From Alphaproteobacteria bacterium (lineage in GTDB: Bacteria > Pseudomonadota > Alphaproteobacteria > Micavibrionales > Micavibrionaceae): a stretch of DNA of 33,113 bases. Below, piece after piece: positions 1,766 through 3,847 of this stretch. The stretch is taken from positions 1 through 33,113 of the forward strand of contig JASBUS010000092.1 in NCBI GenBank assembly GCA_030147745.1, given 5' to 3'. Position numbers and translations under genes: made by a program. A model generated the notes under the pieces. The model made no database searches and was not told the origin of the DNA. It saw nothing but the letters and a program-made list of their open reading frames with translations. Position 1 is the stretch's first letter. Each line of letters starts with the position of its first letter.

Positions 1766-3517
1766 ATGGCTGAAAACACAACGGACAAAAAAGAAGAGTA
1801 TCGCGTCTTGGCGCGTAAATATCGACCGCAGAATTTTGATGATCTGCGTGGTCAGGATGTGCTTGTCCGCACGTTAAAAAATGCCATTGAATCTGGCCGT
1901 ATTGCGCATGCTTTCATGTTAACAGGTGTGCGTGGTGTCGGTAAAACGACAACAGCACGTATTATCGCCAAAGCACTTAACTATACAGGCGCGGATGGTA
2001 AAGCAGGGCCAACAACAGGTCCAACGGAAGATTGTGATATTTGCCGTGCGATTGCTGCGGATCGTCATCCTGATGTTATTGAAATGGATGCGGCGTCAAA
2101 TACAGGCGTTGAAAATATCCGTGAAATTCTAGACAGTGTGCGTTATGCCCCAAGTTCAGCGCGCTATAAAATATACATTATCGATGAAGTGCATATGCTT
2201 TCGAAGTCAGCCTTTAATGCGCTGCTTAAAACTTTGGAAGAGCCGCCAGAGCATGTGAAGTTTATTTTCGCGACTACTGAAATTCGTAAAGTGCCTGTCA
2301 CCGTGCTTTCACGTTGTCAGCGTTTTGACCTGCGCCGTATTGAACCATCGACATTGATGGAGCTGTTCACGGATATCTGCCAAAAAGAAAAAGCAGAAAT
2401 TGAAGACGAAGCCCTCGCGATGATCGCGCGCGCCGCTGATGGTTCAGCGCGTGATGGTTTGAGTATCCTTGACCAAGCCATTTCAATGGCGGACGGAAAA
2501 GTAACATCTGAGCAAGTTAAATCGATGCTTGGCCTTGCAGACCAGTCATGCATTCTTGATTTGTTTGATGCAGCGGTGAGCGGCAAAACAGAGACAGCAC
2601 TTGATATATTGGATGACCTCTATAATGCAGGGGCAGAGCCAATGGTCGTGATGCAAGATCTGCTCGATATGTCTCATATTCTGACACGTTTGCATACCTC
2701 AAAAGACAGCACCAATTTAAAAGGCCGTTTCCCTGAATCGGAATTAAAACGCGCATCTGAATTGGCGCAAGCGTTGTCATTGCCGGCGCTTGCCAAGTCA
2801 TGGCAGATTCTGCTTTCAGGTCATCAAGACGTGATGCATGCACCGCGCCCACAAGCGGCATTGGAAATGGTGATTATTCGTCTTGTTTATGCGGCGAATT
2901 TACCTGACCCTGACAAGCTTTTGAAACAGCTTGAAGAGCTTAAAAATAGCGGTGAAGCCTATACAGGCGGCCATGTTGGCGGCGGTATGCCTGCGCATCC
3001 AACGCAGATGCACGCGCAAAAAAAAACTGAATTTTCCGGAAGCGGTGTAGGGCGCGTTAGCTCCCATGTTCAAGGCGTAACGCGCGCCGCGACAAAGGCA
3101 CAGACATCAGCGCAGCCTGTTGCGGTCGCCAATGCCAATTTAAATACATTAGAAGACATTGTTGCCTTGCTGGAGCAAAATAAGAAAATGGTGCTCGCTA
3201 GCCAGATTTATAACAATGTGCATTTGATCTCTCTTAAAGGCCGCCGCCTTGAAATTGCGTTAGCTGAAGATGTATCGCAAAAACTCGCCGGTGAAATCAC
3301 AACTGAGCTACGCCGCATTACGGGGCACCGTGATTGGGTTATTTCTATTGGTGATCTTGCGAAGGGCCAAAAAACATTGGCAAAAGTCGCAGAAGAGCGC
3401 GTAGAAGCGCGCCTTAAAGATATTATGGGGCAGCCATTTATTGCGAAATTATTAGATTTCTTCCCGGGCACTGAAGTTCGGGATATTATTGAACCGATTG
3501 ATGATGTAGAGGACTAA
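1766..3517 (+). CDS. dnaX: DNA polymerase III subunit tau (and probable gamma)
   Basis: Clamp-loader ATPase and replisome organiser. From the chosen start, the sequence has the R-V-L-A-R-K-Y-R-P opening, Walker A G-V-R-G-V-G-K-T (54-61), a sensor/Walker B with D-E-V-H (140-143) and the S-R-C motif (182-184), then domain III and an alphaproteobacterial tau C-terminus (about 460-570). An upstream in-frame ATG (1703) adds 21 residues that do not look like the family, and neither start has an evident ribosome site, so 1766 (583 residues) is preferred on homology. The zinc module has only two of its usual four Cys (90 and 93); the first two positions are Tyr73 and Thr87. A run of nine A's after the ATPase part is a likely slippage site. 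ybaB follows after six bases, the usual partner; recR, often third, is absent here. Confidence 0.95.
   Translation: MAENTTDKKEEYRVLARKYRPQNFDDLRGQDVLVRTLKNAIESGRIAHAFMLTGVRGVGKTTTARIIAKALNYTGADGKAGPTTGPTEDCDICRAIAADRHPDVIEMDAASNTGVENIREILDSVRYAPSSARYKIYIIDEVHMLSKSAFNALLKTLEEPPEHVKFIFATTEIRKVPVTVLSRCQRFDLRRIEPSTLMELFTDICQKEKAEIEDEALAMIARAADGSARDGLSILDQAISMADGKVTSEQVKSMLGLADQSCILDLFDAAVSGKTETALDILDDLYNAGAEPMVVMQDLLDMSHILTRLHTSKDSTNLKGRFPESELKRASELAQALSLPALAKSWQILLSGHQDVMHAPRPQAALEMVIIRLVYAANLPDPDKLLKQLEELKNSGEAYTGGHVGGGMPAHPTQMHAQKKTEFSGSGVGRVSSHVQGVTRAATKAQTSAQPVAVANANLNTLEDIVALLEQNKKMVLASQIYNNVHLISLKGRRLEIALAEDVSQKLAGEITTELRRITGHRDWVISIGDLAKGQKTLAKVAEERVEARLKDIMGQPFIAKLLDFFPGTEVRDIIEPIDDVED
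3017..3030 (+). promoter_or_regulatory. Candidate dnaX slippage/frameshift site for gamma subunit
   Basis: Nine consecutive A's (3018-3026) in the frame CAA-AAA-AAA-ACT. A -1 ribosomal slip, or a transcript with one extra A, reads AAC then TGA (3028-3030), ending after 421 residues, close to the 431 of E. coli gamma. Loss of one A also reaches a TAG within eight codons. An 8-bp perfect stem (3052-3059 with 3078-3085) lies downstream, but about 25 bases away, further than the usual stimulator spacing. Confidence 0.6.
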
Positions 3518-3523
3518 ACAATC

Positions 3524-3847
3524 ATGATGAATATTCAAAAAATGATGAAACAAGCACAAGAAATGCAGAAGAAAATGCAAGAAGTGCAAGAAACTGTCGG
3601 CCAGATGGAAGCAGAAGGCCGCGCAGGCGGTGGCTTGGTGCGCGTAACAATGACATGCCGCGGTATGGTGACATCACTTAGTGTTGATCCATCATTGGTT
3701 AACGCAAGTGAAGTCGAAGTCATGGAAGATTTGATTGCGGCAGCGGTGAACGATGCACGTGCAAAAGCCGATGCAATCATGACGGAAGAAACACAAAAAG
3801 CGATGCAAGGCATGGGCTTGCCACCAGGTTTGGATTTGCCATTCTAA
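3524..3847 (+). CDS. ybaB: YbaB/EbfC family nucleoid-associated protein
   Basis: The 107-residue protein has the family layout: a Met/Gln/Lys-rich N-terminal amphipathic helix (about 2-30), a central G-G-G-L-V-R-V-T-M-T-C beta segment (36-47), and a C-terminal part with E-D-L-I-A-A-A-V-N-D-A (65-75), ending in G-L-P-P-G-L-D-L-P-F. YbaB/EbfC proteins are small dimeric DNA-binding proteins encoded next to dnaX and recR. The start is one of two adjacent ATGs (3524 or 3527); an AGAGG lies upstream inside the end of dnaX. The gene is in operon with dnaX, six bases apart, and is followed by a strong terminator rather than by recR. Confidence 0.93.
   Translation: MMNIQKMMKQAQEMQKKMQEVQETVGQMEAEGRAGGGLVRVTMTCRGMVTSLSVDPSLVNASEVEVMEDLIAAAVNDARAKADAIMTEETQKAMQGMGLPPGLDLPF

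Follow-up and report, generated by a model that had tools for sequence, protein, structure and literature searches.

A nine-adenine run conserved in the dnaX linker of a Micavibrio-like alphaproteobacterium as a candidate slip site for gamma and tau

We analyzed a stretch of 33,113 nucleotides, referred to below as the window, from an alphaproteobacterium of the family Micavibrionaceae. The window carries dnaX, a clamp-loader gene, on its forward strand, and within this gene lies a run of nine adenines (A9) close to stop codons in both shifted frames (Table 1). Pfam matches cover DnaX residues 30–192 (PF13177), 201–244 (PF22608), 246–389 (PF12169) and 459–574 (PF12362); the AAA+ core spans residues 30–244 and domain III corresponds to PF12169. 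The start codon chosen for dnaX is supported by a relative of the same genus (G001), because the stop-to-stop frame in that genome opens only three residues before the same methionine.

Table 1. Features of the dnaX locus, in window coordinates.
Feature	Position	Strand	Remarks
dnaX, tau (583 aa)	1766..3517	+	ATG at 1766, TAA ending at 3517; mechanical ORF opens at 1703
Variable linker, domain III to C-terminal domain	2933..3139	+	Pfam borders
Invariant block CAA AAA AAA ACT GAA (QKKTE)	3017..3031	+	Codons identical in three congeners
A9 slippage run (candidate)	3018..3026	+	Also in G001 (L004) and G002 (L005)
TGA, −1 frame; would close a 421-residue gamma	3028..3030	+	Same place in all three congeners
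TAG, +1 frame; would close a 427-residue gamma	3048..3050	+	Congeners have other +1 stops
C-terminal domain PF12362; in tau, absent from the predicted gamma	3140..3487	+	Pfam
ybaB/ebfC, downstream neighbor outside the device	3524..3847	+	PF02575

The original prediction was that dnaX carries a slippage run after domain III, and the Pfam borders agree: PF12169 ends at residue 389, ahead of the A9, and the C-terminal domain of tau begins beyond it. A −1 shift at the run reads AAC TGA and so stops after one codon, and a +1 shift reads seven sense codons before TAG, in line with the expectation that such a slip would terminate within eight codons. Translation from the ATG yields 421 residues ending K-K-N if the run has ten As, 427 residues if it has eight, and the full 583 residues of tau from the nine As present; coordinates and translation thus both bear out the numbers given for the proposed gamma. 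The gamma of E. coli is of similar length. On the 3′ side of the run, at 3052–3085, there is also a perfect inverted repeat, GCGCGTTA...TAACGCGC, in a region that folds no better than shuffled sequences.

Alignment of the run in relatives had been suggested as a check, and it showed the run kept in all three genomes of the genus and recurring in other genera of the order. The DnaX proteins of the two other genomes examined of the genus are 90% (G001) and 79% (G002) identical to that of the window, and the 15-base block CAA AAA AAA ACT GAA stands at the same place in 3 of 3. Around the block the codons are scrambled, with 1 of 35 codon columns identical in the three congeners after it and 8 of 40 before it. 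The +1 stops differ too, being TAG after seven codons in the window and TAA after nine or TAG after three in the others. Of 426 degenerate residues common to all three in a codon alignment, 140 have the same codon throughout. Identical codons run for five or more positions at only two sites in dnaX, DVIEMD in the core and QKKTE. From per-residue codon retention, the chance that all five QKKTE codons would be kept is about 0.017, a rough figure drawn from few cases.

A genome-wide control gave a similar picture. The three congener genomes have 27, 21 and 25 distinct runs of at least nine As. In turn, 16, 12 and 15 of these fall in no open frame of at least 100 aa, and dnaX is the only run-bearing ORF of that size common to all three. 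Two other pairs of ORFs have such a run in two genomes: in one pair (L255/L138) it reads as a T-run on the sense strand near the start of the open frame, and in the other (L273/L285) it falls right at the ORF's end. This comparison covered open frames; intergenic runs were judged by eye, and some look shared. One such intergenic A9, in surroundings of approximately AGAGTAAAAAAAAACTTAAGAT, was seen by eye in all three congeners (L266, L279 and L140), at C97:5588-5596 in G000, C13:371102-371110 in G001 and C26:1304-1312 in G002, and is perhaps a promoter or regulatory element.

Across the Micavibrio-like order, we found dnaX matches in 131 of 142 genomes. We used 128 of these genes, leaving out G098 and two loci with no recognisable ORF (L243 and L245); several of the 128 are truncated within the linker or ahead of it, and for these the absence of a run is meaningless. 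Runs of at least nine As occur in 10 of the 128 genes, and 10 of 10 lie in the linker; linkers account for 25,767 of 208,839 bases, or 12% of the length. In the window's family, the bearers are the three congeners (G000, G001 and G002), G058 and G061; in other families they are G029, with ten As, and four members of family f5 (G036, G038, G040 and G041). Also in f5, G028 and G034 are without the run and the contig of G039 ends before the site, and two congeners of G058 (G007 and G057) both lack it.

Could such a run simply be a chance product that persists because the linker is disordered and truncation there does no harm, with no selection for gamma? We redrew synonymous codons from each gene with the amino acids fixed, and the linker amino acids alone gave 3.8 runs of at least nine As (sd 1.5) compared with the 10 seen, a number that 0 of 300 shuffles reached; for split or truncated genes (L226 and L241 are affected) everything remaining of the ORF was counted as linker, a rule adopted once these genes had been seen, and the order-wide counts overstate the evidence given that several genes are close kin. 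The expected 3.8 runs are in keeping with chance, as are the other A9 runs within ORFs of the window genome and the absence of the run from most relatives.

In the linkers of the order, runs of five As were seen 57 times against 34.2 expected, six 25 against 22.9, seven 8 against 11.7, eight 0 against 2.6, nine 9 against 3.3 and ten once against 0.4. The excess at five As points to an A-rich codon choice in linkers in general, which also favors chance, whereas the change from zero at eight to an excess at nine (0 of 200 shuffles as high) argues against it. At a run length of nine, a large share of bacterial genomes begin to show selection against slippage (PMC1088944).

The run is not general in the order. 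On a quick tree of the core domains, with long branches, it is absent from 110 and present in 10 of 120 scored genes (4 were unscorable and 4 were left out), and this distribution needs six changes, five of them forced by well-supported branches; the run has therefore been gained or lost repeatedly. Outside the order, we considered 77 named alphaproteobacterial dnaX genes, leaving out L112 as well as L033 and L034, which have identical stretches with L020 and L206. Here 5 of 5 runs of at least nine As, in four genes, fall in the linker, where 2.1 were expected and 3 of 300 shuffles were as high. Near stops accompany an A9 or A10 in L050 (P 0.12 alone) and L102 (0.07) and, less convincingly, in L041 (0.15); the dnaX of Bartonella tamiae (L087) has an A9 without near stops. 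The L050 gene, from uncultured alphaproteobacterium SI.O27, has both an A9 and an A10 in its linker, and at each of them both other frames reach a stop within eight codons.

Together with its −1 stop, the run forms a 14-mer, CAAAAAAAAACTGA, that occurs at 11 places in the 142 genomes of the order. Five of these are dnaX genes (G000, G001, G002, G058 and G061), which belong to genera g1, g6 and g40; the remaining six are scattered, and by eye no gene recurs among them. Linkers make up so little of these genomes that recurrence of CAAAAAAAAACTGA in dnaX of three genera is far above chance. Among 385 genomes of the class, a sample holding four genomes of the order, the exact motif was found at 18 places and in dnaX only in the window. 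The same 14-mer was seen at L310:1501-1514 (G009), with near stops one and seven codons off in the other frames; this ORF looks, by eye, like coaBC.

Taken alone, the pair of near stops in the window is unremarkable (P 0.13 compared with nearby codon positions). When seven genes are taken as lineages, which are not fully independent, near stops in both non-tau frames give a combined P of 5.7e-5, and with the split genes described below and G061 removed, P is 0.011. We regard the run as above chance because of its retention among congeners, the genome-wide control, the order-wide enrichment, the excess at nine As and the recurrence of the 14-mer in dnaX.

In some relatives, the zero frame stops just after the run. 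In G040, on a single contig, the zero frame ends in ...QKKSLKQA and a stop, with PF12362 next matched in the −1 frame (E 3.3e-26); in G041, the zero frame ends in ...VKKKL and a stop after the A9, and PF12362 again continues in −1 (E 8e-22). G038 shares the A9 and the zero-frame stop of G040, with 86% DNA identity over 1282 bases. Its contig ends 20 bases past the run, short of where a tau part would lie, and this gene is probably split in the same way, tau being encoded in −1 relative to gamma. By contrast, G036, a congener of G041 (70% identity, 389 residues), has a single ORF with near stops in both other frames, so that one-ORF and split-ORF dnaX are found within one genus. Miscounted homopolymers could imitate such a frame break, but this seems less likely because the split is seen in two genera and three assemblies. 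G061 (L226) has an A9 with both stops, and a C9 further along the linker puts its C-terminal domain in the +1 frame. This C9 may come from misassembly or phase variation, or may be a second slip site, and we treat the gene as uncertain.

Two-ORF dnaX genes in which tau arises by a shift have precedent in the GeneTack survey, which cites 17 such genes, nine of them with ten As (PMC3711429); three species are named in the passage, a Chloroherpeton and two Chlorobium. G040 and G041 resemble these in encoding gamma in the zero frame and tau's domain in −1, with an A9 at the junction, whereas the gene in the window is one ORF. Since the tau domain of the split genes needs a shift, a run that is merely tolerated would not account for them, nor for its unchanged sequence in three species that have diverged and whose flanks are scrambled, or for the recurring 14-mer. 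We therefore consider an unselected chance run improbable.

What, then, could the run be for? In our view the A9 is probably a maintained slip site from which RNA polymerase slippage makes both gamma and tau from one gene. RNA polymerase would add or drop As at the run; transcripts with nine As, or with nine plus or minus a multiple of three, would encode full-length tau, and other transcripts would meet TGA at once in the −1 register or TAG soon after in the +1 register. The resulting gamma would consist of the AAA+ core and domain III without the C-terminal domain. The run, its two stops, its position, conservation and recurrence, and the splitting of related genes at a like run can be read directly in the DNA. 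We infer from them the occurrence of slippage and its origin in RNA polymerase rather than the ribosome, as well as any ratio of the products and any role for gamma. That this alphaproteobacterium would have a programmed gamma, as the original prediction held, is supported by the conservation of the run, its recurrence in several genera and the split-gene junctions.

The closest known parallel is Thermus thermophilus, in which dnaX undergoes transcriptional slippage at an A9 (PMC1088944, PMC5009743, PMC4320859), the reported stops being UGA two codons past the run in one register and another stop sixteen codons past it in the other (PMC4320859). In both cases the A9 lies past domain III in an open dnaX frame, the two other registers have near stops, and UGA is the nearest. 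The window belongs to another phylum, its stops fall after one and seven codons rather than two and sixteen, and slippage here is predicted from sequence. Thermus slippage has also been linked to the two lysine tRNAs of that organism (PMC5009743), whereas the only lysine tRNA we found, among 30/31 tRNA loci, is UUU. The tRNA argument from Thermus, which is not a strict requirement, therefore points the other way here.

That single tRNA-Lys fits better with a ribosomal mechanism. In E. coli, dnaX undergoes −1 ribosomal frameshifting on A_AAA_AAG (PMC5009743), and a similar shift on A_AAA_AAA could give the same products in the window: the heptamer is present in frame, the −1 TGA lies one codon past the shift, and the product would end Q-K-K-N at 421 residues, exactly as with ten As. 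As in E. coli, the short product would end one codon past a slip on lysine codons in a genome with a sole tRNA-Lys, and the tau domain of the split genes is in the −1 frame. An A9, whatever its phase, includes A_AAA_AAA in the phase needed for a ribosomal slip, a point against the transcriptional reading. Stimulators also differ among genomes. Fairly stable downstream folds, as the best of eight windows, were obtained for G002 (−2.6), G061 (−3.4) and G040 (−2.0), and G036 has GAGG 13 bases upstream of the run, all of which would suit the ribosome. However, no Shine-Dalgarno-like sequence was found in the 22 bases upstream of the run in any of the three congeners, and the best-of-eight values for these are −0.93, 0.03 and −2.6, the last being G002, so that the window and G001 lack a notable fold. 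A downstream fold as a frameshift stimulator seems unlikely in the window (z 0.27) but may act in G002, G061 and G040, and a search of Rfam at the locus returned two weak, unrelated matches only. The window thus differs from E. coli in having nine As rather than A_AAA_AAG and in showing neither a Shine-Dalgarno-like sequence nor a notable fold. Moreover, a ribosomal −1 shift does not account for close stops in the +1 frame as well, or for an excess at nine As with none at eight when the heptamer needs only seven bases. Transcriptional slippage agrees with a run of this length, with stops paired across the two other frames and with the failure to find stimulators in the window. On the sequence, transcription is favored over the ribosome as the probable mechanism, and ribosomal frameshifting seems to us unlikely, if still a serious contender.

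A third route to gamma is proteolysis. In Caulobacter, also an alphaproteobacterium, short DnaX forms are reported to arise through processing by ClpXP (PMC5422525), and tau in the window could be trimmed to gamma in the same manner, with the run incidental or additional. This would leave the conserved nucleotides and the split genes unexplained, and we consider it very improbable as the source of gamma here. Slippage on an A9 in Thermus dnaX, −1 frameshifting in E. coli and the split form found by GeneTack are already known; among the matches listed in open-access titles and abstracts, we found no report of dnaX slippage or frameshifting in Alphaproteobacteria, which is not proof of absence.

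It is tempting to speculate further on why one-ORF and split genes occur so close together. With slippage, gamma and tau would both be made regardless of the frame encoded in the DNA, so the template would be free to drift between frames. The slip site may have arisen or been lost several times in the order and been kept as a switch, with the template drifting between tau-coding (G036) and gamma-coding (G041) forms within a genus, such that some bacteria would depend on slippage for full-length tau; we put this forward tentatively, as a reading about which we are nearly evenly divided. If true, it would mean a slippage-dependent replisome in Alphaproteobacteria that replaces ClpXP processing.

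There is a long-standing dispute over why bacteria produce gamma and why their routes to it differ so much (PMC5009743). The studied example of the class, Caulobacter, uses proteolysis for gamma, whereas this lineage appears to use slippage. Comparison of close relatives, together with the recoding of two lysine codons, could then put both the need for gamma and the mechanism behind it to the test.
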